Origin: a virus
IMG/VR virus record: IMGVR_UViG_3300044547_000415
Location: 1 to 22,579 of that record
Strand: one strand, 5' to 3'
Length of the DNA stretch: 22,579 bases
A program made the translations under genes and the position numbers. The notes under the pieces are model-generated. The model was not told where the DNA came from. It ran no database searches and saw only the letters and a list, made by a program, of their open reading frames with translations. Positions 2,765 through 8,413 of the stretch are shown here, one piece after another (position 1 is the stretch's first letter; the number at the start of each line of letters is the position of its first letter).

Positions 2765-2793
2765 ATAATACTAGGCTGCTTTTAGTTTGTCAA
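2765..2793 (-). promoter_or_regulatory. Sigma70-like promoter giving a leaderless transcript
   Basis: The minus strand has TTGACA (2793-2788), 17 bases, TATTAT (2770-2765), then six bases before ATG 2758. It lies in the end of the glycosylase gene. Both boxes and the spacing are near consensus, making this among the best promoter matches in the window. Confidence 0.75.
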
Positions 2794-3268
2794 TACTTTT
2801 AGAGAAAAAATCTTCACTTTTATGAGTAGGCCAATAGTAGTTACACTTGTCACAACAAGAAATAAAACTATCAAACATAAACTCTGCATAATATTCTGGA
2901 TCTTTACGATATAGATTATTACGATGGGATTGATGAATTCTCTTATCTCCCCACCAAGCTGGCATAACTATATTGTTTCCACGATTCCAATTGTTGTTAT
3001 GTATTTCTAATATAGCATTCCAATTTTTATCTGTCTTGATTCCGCGATGAACGCATTCGTCTTTGATTGCTTTAAGATATGAAAACAGTCCCATATCATA
3101 ATTTTTCCACATTAGTACTGCTGGATGCCGTACCCAAGCACCTTGGGTTCTACCAGAGGACAATATGTTATATATTTGTCTTCCTTCTAATAATTGTTTC
3201 AATAGTCTTTTATTATCTAGGACTGATGCTGATTTTATAATATTATCGAACGGAACAAAAGTTTGAAT
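2771..3268 (-). CDS. Pyrimidine-dimer DNA glycosylase family protein, ATT start
   Basis: The protein has RHPAVLMWKNY, RGIKTDKNW, PAWWGDKRIHQSHRNNLYRK and DPEYY, the signature of the actinobacterial family annotated MSMEG_6728 / pyrimidine dimer DNA glycosylase-endonuclease V (from memory). Such enzymes excise UV-damaged bases. Family members begin close to MQTFLP followed by a VLD-x(2)-RL-x-KQ stretch. The frame encodes I-QTFVPFDNIIKS and VLDNKRLLKQLLEG upstream of the first ordinary start (TTG 3202). The in-frame TAG of the HNH gene at 3272-3274 blocks further extension, so the full N-terminus can start only at ATT 3268 or ATC 3271. AAGGAG lies six bases before ATT. This gives 165 residues. 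Confidence 0.8.
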   Translation of the reverse strand: MQTFVPFDNIIKSASVLDNKRLLKQLLEGRQIYNILSSGRTQGAWVRHPAVLMWKNYDMGLFSYLKAIKDECVHRGIKTDKNWNAILEIHNNNWNRGNNIVMPAWWGDKRIHQSHRNNLYRKDPEYYAEFMFDSFISCCDKCNYYWPTHKSEDFFSKSIDKLKAA

Positions 3269-3271
3269 GAT

Positions 3272-3742
3272 CTACTCCTTTGGTTGTAGTGTACGACTAT
3301 CATATCCTAGTGACTCAATAAAGTCAACAAGTCGATTTATCTCTGTTTCATAATATTTAGATATTTGCATTCTTTTTATATTTTCGGACCTGCTTACTGG
3401 CTCAAGGTGGCTTGGCTCAATACATAGCTTATTTCTACATAAATGATCCAAGGTGTCGTGACGACCTATTTCTTCAATCATTATTTTGTAATAGATACGA
3501 TGAACTAAATAATTTATATATTTCCATTTGACATTTGGATAGCCACCAGTATCAACATGACCAGTCCAAACCAAACATCCATTATCATTTCTTATAGACT
3601 TTCTTTCTATTCTTTCTTTTAAGGTTTCTTGAGTTTTGAGTGGCGACAATTCCTTGCTTCTCTTTATTTGCATTCGGTGACCCGAGCAATAACCGATTGA
3701 AGATGATTTTGGCAGTTCGCAATTTTCAAACATACACTTCAT
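3272..3742 (-). CDS. HNH endonuclease with N-terminal zinc motif
   Basis: A 156-residue protein. Residues 3-22 (C3, C8, C19, H22) may form a small zinc finger. The HNH_3-like core follows: CLVWTG at 56-61, VHRIYY near 80, LDHLCRNKLCIEPSHLEPVS from about 98 and NIKR at 121. D99/H100 and H112 fit the active site, and C102/C107 a structural zinc. It probably nicks or cuts DNA, as a free-standing homing-type or packaging-related nuclease. ATG 3742 is six bases after TATAAT, so the transcript appears leaderless. Its stop codon overlaps the Shine-Dalgarno region of the glycosylase gene, tying the two DNA-active proteins together. Confidence 0.9.
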   Translation of the reverse strand: MKCMFENCELPKSSSIGYCSGHRMQIKRSKELSPLKTQETLKERIERKSIRNDNGCLVWTGHVDTGGYPNVKWKYINYLVHRIYYKIMIEEIGRHDTLDHLCRNKLCIEPSHLEPVSRSENIKRMQISKYYETEINRLVDFIESLGYDSRTLQPKE

Positions 3743-3748
3743 TTAACT

Positions 3749-3778
3749 ATTATAGCATATCTTTCAACCAGCAGTCAA
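3749..3778 (-). promoter_or_regulatory. Sigma70-like promoter giving a leaderless transcript
   Basis: TTGACT (3778-3773), an 18-base spacer and a perfect TATAAT (3754-3749) are followed by six bases and ATG 3742 of the HNH gene. The -35 overlaps the final codons of the zinc-ribbon gene. No Shine-Dalgarno sequence can fit between the -10 box and the ATG in the transcript. Confidence 0.75.
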
Positions 3779-3957
3779 TCTCTTTCTATAAGATCTAATG
3801 GAGTTGGAGCTGTTAGCTTAGTCTGACAGTAAGCACACTCACAGTCAAGTAAATATCCTATAATTTCATAATCTTCATCAAACTGAACTTGGACAGTAAA
3901 TAAATCTGATCCACATTTAACGCACACCCTAGTTGGTATGCCCCTGCAATCTAGCAT
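3775..3957 (-). CDS. Small zinc-ribbon protein
   Basis: I start it at ATG 3957, preceded by GAAGGG at 8 bases, rather than at the TTG two codons upstream. The 60-residue protein has C12-x2-C15 (VCVKCGSDLF) and, after an acidic beta-strand segment (VQFDEDYEIIGYLLD), C41-x2-C44 (CAYC). This is a simple zinc ribbon of a type frequent in actinophages. It is two bases beyond the 19-residue micro-ORF and shares its promoter. A DNA- or RNA-binding role is usual for the fold, but nothing specific can be said. Confidence 0.8.
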   Translation of the reverse strand: MLDCRGIPTRVCVKCGSDLFTVQVQFDEDYEIIGYLLDCECAYCQTKLTAPTPLDLIERD

Positions 3958-3959
3958 GA

Positions 3960-4019
3960 TCAATACCCTTCGTAATATGATAGAAGAAAATCTTCATCAT
4001 CATAGTATGATTCGTCCAT
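3960..4019 (-). CDS. 19-residue leaderless micro-ORF
   Basis: ATG 4019 to TGA 3960 encodes an acidic, tyrosine-rich peptide (MDESYYDDEDFLLSYYEGY). The ATG is seven bases after TAAAAT of a consensus promoter, so it would be the first codon of a leaderless mRNA. Its end carries the GAAGGG Shine-Dalgarno of the zinc-ribbon gene, so ribosomes finishing here could pass directly to that gene. Whether the peptide acts, or only delivers ribosomes, cannot be told from sequence. Confidence 0.45.
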   Translation of the reverse strand: MDESYYDDEDFLLSYYEGY

Positions 4020-4026
4020 TTTCCTA

Positions 4027-4055
4027 ATTTTACAGGAATTATATCTTATTGTCAA
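4027..4055 (-). promoter_or_regulatory. Consensus promoter at the end of the endonuclease VII gene
   Basis: TTGACA (4055-4050), 17-base spacer, TAAAAT (4032-4027), then seven bases to ATG 4019. The -35 overlaps the stop region of the upstream gene. This is the first of the closely spaced promoters that serve the left accessory region. Confidence 0.75.
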
Positions 4056-4492
4056 GACTGATTTAATAAATAAAGGATAGCTCTTTGTAAAGAACTTATT
4101 TCATCTTTAAACCCGCCAAGAGATGTATTGCACAAGCTGCACAATAGACCTCTAACTTCTCCTGTGGCATGATCATGATCTACAACAAGATCTTTTTTGT
4201 TTTGACAGATCCAGCACTTGCCTTCTTGCTCAACAAAGATCTCTGTGTATTTTGCTAATGTTATATTGTATTTTCTCTTTAAATACTTTTCTCTTACGGC
4301 TTCTGGATCTCTAGCTTTTTCTCTACGCATTCTATCTTTACGTTGTTTGTTGTCACATGCCCTGCACTCTGGCCTAATTTCTCCAGGTTTAGTAGAATTT
4401 TTTGCAAACTCAAGCTCAGAAAGAATTCTTTTACACACATAGCAGTATTTTTCTGTAGGTGCTGGAAACAAAACTTCCTGATAGCTTTCCAT
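4052..4492 (-). CDS. Recombination endonuclease VII family nuclease
   Basis: A 146-residue protein. The N-terminal zinc motif uses C17, C20, C43 and C46. The C-terminal His-Me finger has CWIC (93-96), VVDHDHATGEVRGLLCSLCN (103-122) and a conserved SLGG. This is the T4 endonuclease VII (gp49) family signature; those enzymes resolve branched DNA, while short phage copies may instead act as free-standing HNH nucleases. ATG 4492 overlaps the stop of the glycosyltransferase gene as TAATG. The promoter for the next transcription unit begins in its last codons. Confidence 0.9.
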   Translation of the reverse strand: MESYQEVLFPAPTEKYCYVCKRILSELEFAKNSTKPGEIRPECRACDNKQRKDRMRREKARDPEAVREKYLKRKYNITLAKYTEIFVEQEGKCWICQNKKDLVVDHDHATGEVRGLLCSLCNTSLGGFKDEISSLQRAILYLLNQS

Positions 4493-5286: not shown

Positions 5287-5887
5287 TTTTGCTCCTATTT
5301 CTTATTATCGCTGTAGCTGATAGGGGGCTACTTCTTTCTCCCCGAATAAATATTCCTACTATCTCCATATTCTTATCGATGTACTCTTTTTGCTCATCTG
5401 TTGAGTAGGGAGAGGTCCATCCATTTACATTAAAACCTTCTAAAAGGTCAAGGGTATTGATATCGTTTGGTGCAAGAAAATGTTCTCCGCACCATGGAGC
5501 ATGAAGATCCTCAATGACATATAATTTTGAAAATTTAAAAAGAGTAGAGAAAGAAACTTGCATCATCTGTGCCGTGTGCCCACCATCATCTAGAATAACG
5601 TCATACTCTCCTGTAATGTTGTTAAGCATCTGATCAACATTAAGTTGGTCAACTATTCGTATATCGCATCCATTAATCGGAGTACTTGGGTTAATATCCC
5701 AACCCTCAGCTATAGAAGCCTTTGGCAACCATTCTCTCCACGCTTTCAATGACGCACCAGACTGTACACCTATTTCTAAGAACCTTTTGATGTTTTTGCG
5801 ATCAAAGTGCTTTTCATAAAAGTTCATGTACTCATGGTAAGTTGATTTATCCGTTCCATACTTTAGTCCTATTTTATGAAGATTCAT
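5279..5887 (-). CDS. SAM-dependent methyltransferase, macrocin-O-methyltransferase-like
   Basis: A 202-residue protein. N-terminal KYGTDKSTYHEYMNFYEKHF and FLEIGVQSGASLKAWREWLP (about 36-55) match the class I methyltransferases related to macrolide/sugar O-methyltransferases. LEIGVQSG is motif I and binds SAM; GWDINP is the acidic strand-2 motif; YDVILDDGGHT resembles the metal-binding DDG region. It starts at ATG 5887 with an ATGA overlap, and its end overlaps the glycosyltransferase start by 8 bases. Methylation of a sugar is likely from family and neighbours; the substrate is inferred only. Confidence 0.85.
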   Translation of the reverse strand: MNLHKIGLKYGTDKSTYHEYMNFYEKHFDRKNIKRFLEIGVQSGASLKAWREWLPKASIAEGWDINPSTPINGCDIRIVDQLNVDQMLNNITGEYDVILDDGGHTAQMMQVSFSTLFKFSKLYVIEDLHAPWCGEHFLAPNDINTLDLLEGFNVNGWTSPYSTDEQKEYIDKNMEIVGIFIRGERSSPLSATAIIRNRSKNV

Positions 5888-6345
5888 TTGACAACATTCA
5901 CCTGTTCTATGTAGTCAGAGCACACTCCATAAAAAGAATTTGGCATTCTTAAGTCTTTATATTGTTCTCCGCGTTCTGGTAAAACAACTATGCACTTATC
6001 TGATTTTATTTCTTTTCCTGGGTAGGCCCAGATAAAACCCTTACTTGTTAAGACTGCATCATCTTCGTTGTGGCTAAAGCAATTATAATAGTCGCTTCTT
6101 CTACAAAAGTCAAGGGCTAGAAGATTTTTACAATGAATCCATGCATGATCTCTAATACTATTAAGATAGCGTTCACTAATTTCATATTCAAGCATGTCGT
6201 GACCTAGAAATAAAGAGCCTTCCATTAACCACAAATCAATTTCAACATCATAGCCAAGCTCTAAGGCTTCATTTAAATACTCTGGAGAATTTTCTCTATC
6301 TATATTTGGACCGCTAATGTTTCCTCTATGAGAAATCAGTTTCAC
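5884..6345 (-). CDS. Glycerophosphodiester phosphodiesterase-like protein
   Basis: I choose GTG 6345, which overlaps the upstream stop as GTGA, over a TTG six codons earlier; this puts the active-site start at the usual place. The 153-residue protein has KLISHRGN (H6, R7), REN (E19, N20), DVEIDLW (E35, D37) and LGHD (H49), the HR...EN...ExD...H pattern of GDPD/PI-PLC-like TIM barrels. Usual GDPDs are about 240 residues, so this is a short phage-type form. It would cleave glycerophosphodiesters to glycerol-3-phosphate or a related phosphomonoester. It sits between two methyltransferases in the sugar cassette. Confidence 0.8.
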   Translation of the reverse strand: MKLISHRGNISGPNIDRENSPEYLNEALELGYDVEIDLWLMEGSLFLGHDMLEYEISERYLNSIRDHAWIHCKNLLALDFCRRSDYYNCFSHNEDDAVLTSKGFIWAYPGKEIKSDKCIVVLPERGEQYKDLRMPNSFYGVCSDYIEQVNVVK

Positions 6346-7049
6346 TTCTCTACCTGCACCCAAATCCAGTTTCTGTGATTATCTCCTGGACCTGTTGGTC
6401 GAATGTCTGATTTATAATTTTTAAATCCAATCTTATTAACTAGGTCATCGGATAGTTCAGATTCATCAGTAATGCTTACATCTGCATGACCATTAGTAGT
6501 GATAGCATCATAAACATTATCATAGTACCCTGCAGTTTCTGTGTGAGCCTTTCCACCATATCCCATTTGGAAACAAAGTTTCCCACCTGGCTTAAGAATT
6601 CGATAAGCTTCTTTAAGAATGTTAAATCTAATTTCATGCACACAAATATGTTGAAAACAAATAACTGCAAAGAATACGTCATAAGTATTATCTTTAATCA
6701 TACTGAGACTGTCTCCAGGTGTGGGGTAAAGGTTTGGCAACTCAATTCCATTATGCTCAATATTAATCTTAGCTTTATCTAGATTTGTCTGAGCAATATC
6801 TACTCCATCAATTCTTCCAAAACGATCATGAAATTCAATAATGTTTCTCCCTGGACCACAGCCATAGTCTAAGGCTACTAGTCCACTTGTATCAAAGTCT
6901 TTAAAAAGGTATGTGTCATAGTCAGGCCAGTCATTATGGGCATCATATGATCCAACAACAGGGTCTCTATATGTTAGGGACCATGCTTCTGCATACCCCT
7001 CATAATGATCGTTTTGCATCTTTAAATAATCTTTTTTATTTTTCATCAT
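6342..7049 (-). CDS. Class I SAM-dependent methyltransferase
   Basis: A 235-residue protein. LDYGCGPGRN (60-69) is SAM motif I, GRIDGVDIAQ the acidic motif II, DVFFAVICFQHI the motif IV region and LKEAYRILKPGGKLCFQ the strand typical of Methyltransf_11/25 domains. The C-terminal region is less conserved. ATG 7049 overlaps the upstream stop as ATGA. Context with a nucleotidyltransferase and glycosyltransferases suggests a small-molecule or glycan substrate rather than DNA; the sequence has none of the catalytic DPPY-type motifs of DNA amino-methyltransferases. Confidence 0.85.
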   Translation of the reverse strand: MMKNKKDYLKMQNDHYEGYAEAWSLTYRDPVVGSYDAHNDWPDYDTYLFKDFDTSGLVALDYGCGPGRNIIEFHDRFGRIDGVDIAQTNLDKAKINIEHNGIELPNLYPTPGDSLSMIKDNTYDVFFAVICFQHICVHEIRFNILKEAYRILKPGGKLCFQMGYGGKAHTETAGYYDNVYDAITTNGHADVSITDESELSDDLVNKIGFKNYKSDIRPTGPGDNHRNWIWVQVEK

Positions 7050-8413
7050 GCCTCTCTGTTATTTTCTAAAAAGTAATTTAAATCTTCTGGAGTTCCAATG
7101 CCCCACATTTTTTCAATAAACTTTGGCCTAATCTTTTTGTTATCACTAACAGCTTCATTAAAAACTGGGCAAACATAAAACTCATTGTTAGTTCTAATAT
7201 CCTTATCAATCATTTGCTTTGCATACTTTACATAGTCTGATCCATGCTTCCAGTAATAAACTCCAACTGTAGCGTTGTCAGATATTGGATTTTTCTCTGC
7301 TACCTCTACAATAAAACCGTTGTCATCAAGTCTTGCATAAGACCACTTTGGATGAGTTGCTTTAAAGGTCATTATTCCTGCATCAACATTAGAAGCTGTG
7401 AATGCATACATAGCCTCATTTGCATCCCAGTCCATAACCTGATCTGAGTTTGCAATAACCAATGGCTTGTCGCTATCAATTAGACTCTCTGCAAGAAGGG
7501 TGGTGCAGGCAGCACCCTCTGTTATCCCATCAACCTGAACAATGTCACAACCTGGGGCAATAAGGTTTAGCACTTGCTTTAAATTATATTTTTCATAATG
7601 TTCTTTTTGTACTAAGAAAATGTAATGAGCATCAAGATTAAGATTCTCTACAACCACTTGAATCATTGGCTTTCCATGTACTTCAATCAGTGGCTTAGGG
7701 AAGGTGTATCCAGCCTGAGCAAACCTTGATCCTGCTCCAGCCATAGGAATAAGAACGTTCATCTCTTTATTAATCCATGGAATAGTTGCCTGATTCTCAA
7801 CCTTATCCAGCATGTTTACAAACCTTTCATAGCTTAAATCATCAGAATTCTTTATTGGGTATAGTATAGCACCAGATGCCTTTGCACCCTCTCTTCCAAT
7901 GTGAGAATCTTCAACAATTATTGTATCTCTTGGGTGAGCATCTAAGGCCGTCATACATTTCCAATACATCTCTGGATAAGGCTTATGATGCCTAACATCT
8001 TCATTACTAACAACATAGTCAACAAGGTGAAGCAATCCTAATGAGCTTAATGCTACTCTGACGGTATCTCTAATGCTGTTGCTTGCCACTGCTATTTTAT
8101 ATTTGCGATCTCTTAACGCAAACATAATTTTGATTGCAGTTACGTTGTATTGAAAGTTCTCTAGCAATGCTATGGTTTCTTCTTGTTTTTGTTTCCAGAT
8201 AAAATCATGTTGATCTATTGGCAAACCCTTTTCAATTGTAAGCATTTCAAGCTTTTTCTTTGTACTGAGTCCGTCATATTTTGCAACATGCTCTTGATAG
8301 GTTATGCAGTATTTTGGGGCAACAAGTGCAATAGCATTATTCAATGCATCAAAGTGCAAATCACGAGAATCCATTAACACACCATCAAGATCAAAAATAA
8401 CTAACTTATTCAC
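7046..8413 (-). CDS. HAD phosphatase-nucleotidyltransferase fusion
   Basis: A 455-residue two-domain protein with a GTG start (8413) in a GTGA overlap. Residues 1-205 are a HAD domain: D8-L-D10-GV, S111 in VASNS, K144-P and VEDS (168-171). Residues 218-455 are a sugar-nucleotidyltransferase: NVLIPMAGAGSRF with K240-PL, TEGAA near 299-302 and ANSDQ (D324). It should both activate a sugar- or polyol-phosphate with NTP and dephosphorylate a related phosphate, possibly an earlier intermediate. Donor substrate is not readable. The fused form suggests two steps of one pathway. Confidence 0.9.
   Translation of the reverse strand: MNKLVIFDLDGVLMDSRDLHFDALNNAIALVAPKYCITYQEHVAKYDGLSTKKKLEMLTIEKGLPIDQHDFIWKQKQEETIALLENFQYNVTAIKIMFALRDRKYKIAVASNSIRDTVRVALSSLGLLHLVDYVVSNEDVRHHKPYPEMYWKCMTALDAHPRDTIIVEDSHIGREGAKASGAILYPIKNSDDLSYERFVNMLDKVENQATIPWINKEMNVLIPMAGAGSRFAQAGYTFPKPLIEVHGKPMIQVVVENLNLDAHYIFLVQKEHYEKYNLKQVLNLIAPGCDIVQVDGITEGAACTTLLAESLIDSDKPLVIANSDQVMDWDANEAMYAFTASNVDAGIMTFKATHPKWSYARLDDNGFIVEVAEKNPISDNATVGVYYWKHGSDYVKYAKQMIDKDIRTNNEFYVCPVFNEAVSDNKKIRPKFIEKMWGIGTPEDLNYFLENNREA

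Follow-up and report, generated by a model that had tools for sequence, protein, structure and literature searches.

The question raised by this locus is where translation begins in a gene that has an open frame and a conserved domain and lacks an ATG, GTG or TTG at the place where the domain starts. The gene belongs to the PF03013 pyrimidine-dimer-glycosylase family and lies in a 22.6-kb viral record (the window, that is, the whole stretch of DNA analysed), the terminase of which is 54.7% identical to Streptomyces phage terminases. On the minus strand, the open reading frame of an HNH-nuclease-like gene (3742-3272) ends AAG GAG TAG, and the next codons are ATC ATT CAA ACT TTT GTT CCG TTC (Table 1). 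The glycosylase frame is closed by this TAG (3274-3272), and no canonical start codon is found before the TTG at 3202-3200, which lies 22 codons into the conserved domain. These observations agree with an earlier note on this DNA, which had proposed a start at ATT and had named ATC 3271 and ATT 3268 as the only candidates left by the TAG.

The same note had placed AAGGAG six bases before ATT and the HNH and glycosylase genes in one frame, and both statements were confirmed on the minus strand: AAGGAG occupies 3280-3275, the spacer TAGATC separates it from ATT by 6 nt (ATC is 3 nt away), and the two genes are three bases apart in a single frame, both here and in the related contig L020. Its statement that the HNH stop shares bases with the ribosome-binding site did not hold, because AAGGAG consists of the last two sense codons and abuts the TAG with no overlap. 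The RNA structure at the start site is nothing unusual (z -0.39). The scanned region holds 10 promoter-like sites where 7.1 (sd 2.5) would be expected, and the one inside the 3′ end of the HNH gene could serve the glycosylase gene alone.

Table 1. Features around the proposed start of the glycosylase gene, in window coordinates
Feature	Position	Strand	Remarks
PF03013 pyrimidine-dimer-glycosylase-family gene	2771..3268	-	165 codons from ATT, plus TAG stop (2773-2771)
TTG, first canonical start codon	3200..3202	-	inside the conserved domain
ATT, proposed start codon at the family Met position	3266..3268	-	placed by alignment of relatives
ATC, other in-frame near-cognate codon, less likely start	3269..3271	-	3 nt from AAGGAG, one residue ahead of the family Met
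TAG stop of the HNH gene, in the glycosylase frame	3272..3274	-	
Shine-Dalgarno sequence AAAGGAG	3275..3281	-	made by the last HNH codons, 6 nt before ATT
Promoter-like TTGACT-17-TATGAT inside the HNH 3′ end	3299..3327	-	10/12 matches, weak evidence
Free-standing HNH-nuclease-like gene, 156 aa	3272..3742	-	between the small upstream gene and the glycosylase gene; absent from L004-L008
Sigma-70-like promoter TTGACT-18-TATAAT, TG before the -10	3749..3778	-	11/12 matches; -10 ends 6 nt before the HNH ATG
Small gene ending PTPLDLIERD	3775..3963	-	directly precedes the glycosylase gene in HNH-free relatives

The conserved domain places the start precisely. The frame matches PF03013 with E 4e-17 and 62.8 bits (cut-off 23) over positions 2-80 of 81, and profile position 2 is the Q after ATT, so that position 1 falls on ATT. 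The residues QTFVPF and then VLDNKRLLKQ, encoded 3′ of ATT and correctly recognised in the earlier note as the conserved beginning of the family, give the window protein the whole N-terminal motif MQTF(L/V)P...LD..RL..Q..E except the Met itself. In an alignment of 52 sequences, numbered with ATT as residue 1, Q2, F4, D18, R21, L22, K24, Q25 and E28 are invariant, and in the AlphaFold2 model (mean pLDDT 92) residues 1-10 are predicted at 95. If only ATG, GTG and TTG are admitted as starts, the reading frame begins at TTG 3202, and a short protein could be made from there after the ATG was lost to the HNH insertion; it would lack five invariant residues (Q2, F4, D18, R21 and L22). The proposed check by N-terminal alignment thus revealed no shift to an ordinary downstream start, since the residues before TTG 3202 are conserved.

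Relatives carry a start at this same position. Among 47 loci found in viral contigs by protein similarity, 45 reach the start, with ATG in 41, ATT in two and ATC in two. The ATT pair (L002 and L003) are copies of the window's phage: these two further contigs (L002/L049 and L003/L051, from two IMG datasets) have the same ATT and are 99.9% identical to the window over 5.6-13 kb, with 4-7 mismatches elsewhere. A sequencing error at the ATT is ruled out by the three near-identical contigs and by the relatives. The ATC pair is L020/L021, whose protein is 63% identical and which shows the same context behind a different HNH nuclease, with ATC-ATC where the window has ATC-ATT. A search with the L020 protein gave, for the best 80 of at least 600 relatives, ATG in 72, GTG in seven and ATC in one (L137, which is the L020 contig again). 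Three queries matched 66, 58 and 38 named phage records, of which we examined 13; ATG stands at the aligned codon in 12, the deposited coding sequence begins at that ATG in nine, and the remaining record, L454, does not align at the start codon. An ATH copy (ATT, ATC or ATA at this place) occurs in none of the 13. Since relatives and named phages mostly carry ATG there, the family start is the position claimed from the sequence, and the proposal of a start at ATT is supported. Downstream of its glycosylase gene, L020 also carries an array of 13 phage tRNA genes (5364-7916, plus strand).

The neighbouring ATC (3271-3269) would give a protein one residue longer. It precedes the ATT or ATC of the Met position in both the window and L020, and could be favoured on that ground, but AAGGAG is just 3 nt away from it, the family Met aligns with ATT, and the codon before the ATT, ATC or ATA is GTC in L103 and, for the majority of the other lineages listed, one that is not near-cognate to ATG. 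Spacing (6 rather than 3 nt) and the family Met position both favour ATT over ATC, and we regard initiation at the ATC as very unlikely.

How the ATG came to be lost can be approached through alleles that have or lack a nuclease gene at one site. The window HNH gene resembles HNH_3 (E 1.2e-4, 22 bits, under the 24.8 cut-off) and zf-His_Me_endon (E 8e-4, 20 bits, under the cut-off of 27), while its L020 counterpart is of another type, HNH-AP2, and passes HNH_3 at 34.4 bits. In L004-L008, whose flanking DNA is 90-99% identical to that of the window, ATG CAA ACA TTT comes directly after a small gene ending PTPLDL(I/V)E. For the L020 lineage the HNH-free ATG allele is L139, with one difference over the 52 aligned bases through ATGCAAACAT. 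After ATGCAAACAT, L020 continues with a promoter-like TATAAT, the HNH-AP2 gene and then AAAGGAGTAAATC ATC CAAACATTCGT, so that the original ATGCAAACATT lies upstream of the HNH gene and CAAACATTCGTG downstream. The comparison of L020 with L139 thus shows the nuclease gene flanked by direct repeats of CAAACATT, with a new ribosome-binding site supplied by its 3′ end. In the window the insertion step is inferred from the relatives, because its 5′ flank keeps no copy of ATGCAAAC. The TATAAT ends 6 nt before the nuclease ATG in the window and also, by eye, in L020, which suggests that the nuclease mRNAs of both lineages may be leaderless.

The repeats of L020 allow another reading, in which the HNH region is removed by splicing, as an intron, or else is skipped by a bypass, and an upstream AUG is joined to CAA ACT TTT. 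With ATGCAAACATT upstream and CAAACATTCGTG downstream, an exact removal between the repeats would restore an ATG. However, Rfam detected no intron family in six such loci or in the window region, ATGCAAAC is missing upstream in the window, the insert (about 470-490 nt) is almost wholly open reading frame, and non-AUG genes with no upstream HNH reading frame are common. We therefore consider an intron or a bypass exceedingly improbable.

The two junctions are alike. By eye, window and L020 agree over about 22 nt with two differences, and the alignment gives 16 nt with one difference; a common descent of the junctions is possible, despite the different type of the nucleases. The junction pattern AAAGGAGTARATCATHCARAC matched five viral contigs, four of which belong to the window or the L020 lineage. 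The match in the fifth, L052, was rejected, being an unrelated reading frame that resembles a homing nuclease (by eye), in which the codons for KGVNHPN spell the pattern; the agreement of these codons (L052:2069-2089, plus strand) with the L020-lineage junction AAAGGAGTAAATCATCCAAAC may be chance or may hint at the origin of the junction. In L020 (3523-3555, plus strand) ATGCAAACATTA, a remnant that precedes the HNH-AP2 gene, makes with TAATGTTTGCAT what is, by eye, a perfect 12-nt inverted repeat around the -10, possibly an operator and possibly chance. A second, different HNH-like reading frame lies two genes upstream in the window (4052-4492, minus strand; 30 protein letters judged by eye), in DNA common to the HNH-free relatives L004-L008.

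The earlier note had offered as another option the readthrough of the TAG, giving an HNH-glycosylase fusion with no initiation at ATT. Having the two genes in one frame and three bases apart, in L020 as well as in the window, is what this reading has in its favour. It loses ground in the relatives: L020 has TAA and an HNH-AP2 nuclease, the upstream gene is in another frame in L103, L111, L115, L117 and others, and L070, L081 and L130 have no upstream reading frame passing the length and distance limits. In the window itself TAG is an ordinary stop, ending 9 of the 44 reading frames taken as genes; ARAGORN detected no tRNA gene there, in what is a genome fragment, and no suppressor tRNA in 11 scanned loci, likewise all fragments. 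The N-terminus would moreover be buried in a fusion. We judge readthrough highly improbable.

To see how often other members of the family lack an ATG, we searched viral contigs for ATT, ATC or ATA (together ATH) at the Met position. The first scan, with the pattern GGAG, 3-9 nt, ATH and codons for QTF(x)P, gave 87 viral stretches; 83 lie outside the two lineages, and tblastn assigned 27 of these to the family and 56 not, a number of the order that, by a rough estimate, chance alone would give. The second scan dropped the Shine-Dalgarno requirement and added the later LD..RL codons, and gave 57 contigs; for the 28 loci that were new, the class was read from the translated start instead of from tblastn. 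The combined census holds 59 viral contigs with ATT, ATC or ATA at the Met position, one of which, L584, is probably a chance match; duplicates (L001-L003, L020, L021, L137) and a genome record (L228) were left out. We termed strict the contigs with an in-frame stop 2-56 codons upstream, no ATG, GTG or TTG between and at least 115 aa. There are 44 of these among the 59 (ATT 33, ATC 6, ATA 5), falling into 23 groups at 80% identity and 18 at 60%. The others are non-strict through a canonical in-frame upstream codon (L060, L077, L091, L103, L121, L582, L585, L587, L592 and L600-L603) or through short length (L584 and L594). ATT, ATC or ATA thus occupies the aligned position in many other phage lineages.

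In a FastTree phylogeny of 236 representatives from before the second scan, the 24 ATH tips, among them the non-strict L060, L077, L091 and L103 and the archaeal L228, need 17 changes. One clade, marked by FNKCAY, contains ATT in L111, L117 and L118, ATA in L099 and ATC in L582, and has no ATG copy among the loci compared, where ATG copies without GGAG could have been missed; it looks as if ATG were avoided there.

Nuclease genes are found beside several of these starts. Among 34 ATH loci examined, 27 have an upstream reading frame of at least 60 aa ending within about 80 nt, and HNH_3 matches 8 of the 27; among 135 ATG loci, a side that includes a few GTG copies, 81 have such a frame, and HNH_3 matches at most 1 of the 81, L018 having another HNH type. 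The comparison of these upstream frames covers the top 25 of 46 families, ranked by members. By sequence, the eight HNH_3-matching frames look like those of L002, L020, L084, L088, L103, L115, L592 and L603, of which L084 and L088 are near relatives and L103, L592 and L603 are non-strict. These counts indicate that nuclease genes accompany ATG loss in several lineages, and that the majority of the ATH loci examined lack them; between L089/L090 (ATT) and L511 (ATG), for instance, little in the leader differs besides the spacer and the start codon.

Relatives of the window gene that have ATH starts are under purifying selection. We compared 15 ATH gene pairs, which share members and four of which include non-strict copies (L582, L103 twice, L091). 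Thirteen were informative, one of the others being identical and one differing at two synonymous sites, and gave dN/dS of 0.055-0.226 at dS of 0.14-2.7, near saturation in several. The pairs keep their codon class while synonymous sites diverge, and so the genes look translated and used; the values come from relatives, the window lineage being known as near-identical copies. They bear on the possibility that the window gene is dead. A mobile gene that inserts at a start codon could plausibly inactivate the gene concerned, but the full-length frame is open in the three near-identical contigs, a strong, correctly spaced Shine-Dalgarno sequence stands ahead of the ATT, and the low dN/dS of the non-AUG pairs elsewhere extends over long divergence. 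A dead gene, or one reduced to the short protein from TTG 3202, is in our estimation very improbable.

The strength of the Shine-Dalgarno sequence also distinguishes the two kinds of start. GGAG lies 3-9 nt before the codon in 25 of the 43 strict contigs from the census made without regard to the Shine-Dalgarno sequence, and in 9 of the 113 ATG copies fetched by protein similarity alone, the two sets differing in clade make-up. Counted by groups, in which any member counts, the figures are 14/22 strict and 4/72 ATG. The tests gave p 6e-11 for contigs (26/44) and p 1e-8 for groups (15/23), from tables that include one contig found only via GGAG. GGAG is absent from eight of the 23 groups, four of which also lack any Shine-Dalgarno match of at least 4 nt, so a strong Shine-Dalgarno sequence is not universal among ATH genes.

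We consider it highly probable that the glycosylase gene is initiated at AUU behind a strong Shine-Dalgarno sequence following insertion of an HNH-like gene, and that loss of the ATG is recurrent in this phage family. The ATT start is thus very probably real and one of many. In the proposed sequence of events, a glycosylase gene formerly starting with ATG would have received, at its 5′ end, a free-standing HNH homing-endonuclease-like gene that brought its own promoter; the 3′ end of this insert would supply the ribosome-binding site, and ATG would have become ATT, a change that the insertion itself may have caused. Translation would start at the AUU (3268-3266), with AAAGGAG in the last HNH codons, at a spacing of 6, holding the ribosome while fMet-tRNA starts on the near-cognate codon. 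This start may perhaps be fed in part by re-initiation of ribosomes finishing at the HNH TAG three bases away, with direct entry by others. The same loss of ATG, in working genes, has occurred many times in phage members of the family. The first residue would be Met, and Met removal is not expected when residue 2 is Gln, as in the window protein.

AUU starts are familiar from E. coli, where they tune IF3 (infC) or limit poly(A) polymerase (pcnB). Both are cited in PMC13009471 and PMC2268962, and they resemble the present case in that AUU starts a working gene; they are host genes, whereas here a phage repair-family gene has switched repeatedly and independently, sometimes with a mobile nuclease gene upstream. 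A parallel is found in S. aureus, where, according to PMC13009471, the AUU of cvfC1 and the AUA of ccpN and infC have extended Shine-Dalgarno sequences, and the start and the Shine-Dalgarno sequence of cvfC1 and ccpN are conserved in relatives. Compared with AUG, reporters of cvfC1, ccpN and citZ yielded about 10% in poor medium, and ccpN reached up to 30% in rich medium. The shared feature is a near-cognate AUN start with an unusually strong Shine-Dalgarno sequence. The S. aureus starts were seen by Ribo-Ret and, for cvfC1, ccpN and citZ, tested by luciferase, whereas the phage starts are known from sequence, and their Shine-Dalgarno strength varies, down to the four groups lacking a 4-nt match. 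High IF3 suppresses non-canonical starts, and also re-initiation that lacks a Shine-Dalgarno sequence, according to PMC2268962. We read the combination of AUU and AAAGGAG as a genuine, though weak, start because of the S. aureus AUU/AUA precedent and these IF3 findings; its yield is probably low, and selection may keep the expression low or sensitive to IF3.

The T4-like phages offer a parallel for the nuclease. According to PMC2988022, their homing nucleases contain promoters for the genes that follow, an arrangement thought to help the nucleases to be retained. Their free-standing HNH homing endonucleases are, like ours, mobile nucleases beside a conserved gene, carrying expression signals of the neighbour; the T4-like phages embed promoters, whereas here, where homing is putative, a Shine-Dalgarno sequence is found in the last nuclease codons and the neighbour starts with a non-AUG codon. 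This suggests that a mobile nuclease could make its neighbour dependent on its translation signals, the ribosome-binding site in the nuclease playing the retention role that promoters would play in T4-like phages.

T4PDG (endonuclease V) uses an N-terminal amine and an active-site glutamate, as stated in PMC3285167. Its likeness to the present family lies in the name and in the invariant Glu28; for fold and chemistry, a sequence profile search with the glycosylase gave no link to T4PDG or any solved structure, and Foldseek with the glycosylase model against the PDB gave no match with E below 1. If the family does use its N-terminal amine like T4PDG, a fused or truncated product would be inactive, and exact initiation would be favoured.

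A wider and more tentative idea, which we hold to be somewhat doubtful, is that AUG has been converted repeatedly and selectively to AUU, AUC or AUA, mostly behind strong Shine-Dalgarno sequences, so that a DNA-cutting repair enzyme is throttled in a way that responds to IF3. Homing-endonuclease genes would be one recurrent cause, the ribosome-binding site in their last codons keeping the interrupted gene usable and making nuclease loss costly. The many independent non-AUG origins in one family are natural replicates for the purpose of a weak start codon, and the family gives a direct test of phage use of IF3 control. Gene finding limited to ATG, GTG and TTG would shorten or miss such genes. 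Among the papers listed from the open-licence PMC literature, none described AUU starts for this family or their repeated origin in phages, which is weak evidence that no such report has been printed.

Judging from the sequences compared, non-AUG starts outside the glycosylase family are rare. With a matched pattern, viral DNA gave 10 ATH and 98 ATG loci of the family (10/108, near-copies included). The matched viral and chromosome scans required T at the third base of codon 9, which undercounts ATG and ATH alike; a broad ATG pattern gave at least 120 matches, and the non-AUG share rests on the matched scan pair only. In 3.5 Mb of viral DNA, other families had ATH in 0 of 386 mapped starts with GGAG (p 2e-7 against 10/108), after mapped positions had been moved to any canonical start with a Shine-Dalgarno sequence that lay no more than three codons away, a step that could hide a real case. 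Before the reassignment, the mapped start of two other-family reading frames (L145 and L387) was the ATH one codon beyond an ATG. A further 27 other-family reading frames mapped to ATH with no GGAG. A scan of equal design for HU genes gave one ATT (L341) against 62 ATG with the HU signature (10/108 vs 1/63, p 0.057), besides 44 ATG hits without the signature and three ATH hits that are not HU. L341 is a minus-strand HU-family phage gene with an apparent ATT start behind AAAGGAG and no canonical alternative, and all 19 mapped relatives in the fetched set place the start on the same codon. The HU case indicates that the non-AUG habit may not be unique to the glycosylase family.

On chromosomes, genome samples of 398, 395 and 294 had pattern matches in 3, 5 and 6 genomes, counts with no usable denominator. 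The pattern scan of genome contigs gave 21 stretches, one of which is a family member by tblastn (L228, a Methanohalobium MAG, with ATA). In L228 (4370, plus strand) and in L574, which are two archaeal genomes, the family gene has ATA right after a TAA, and the two have the GGGAGGTTCTAA leader in common.
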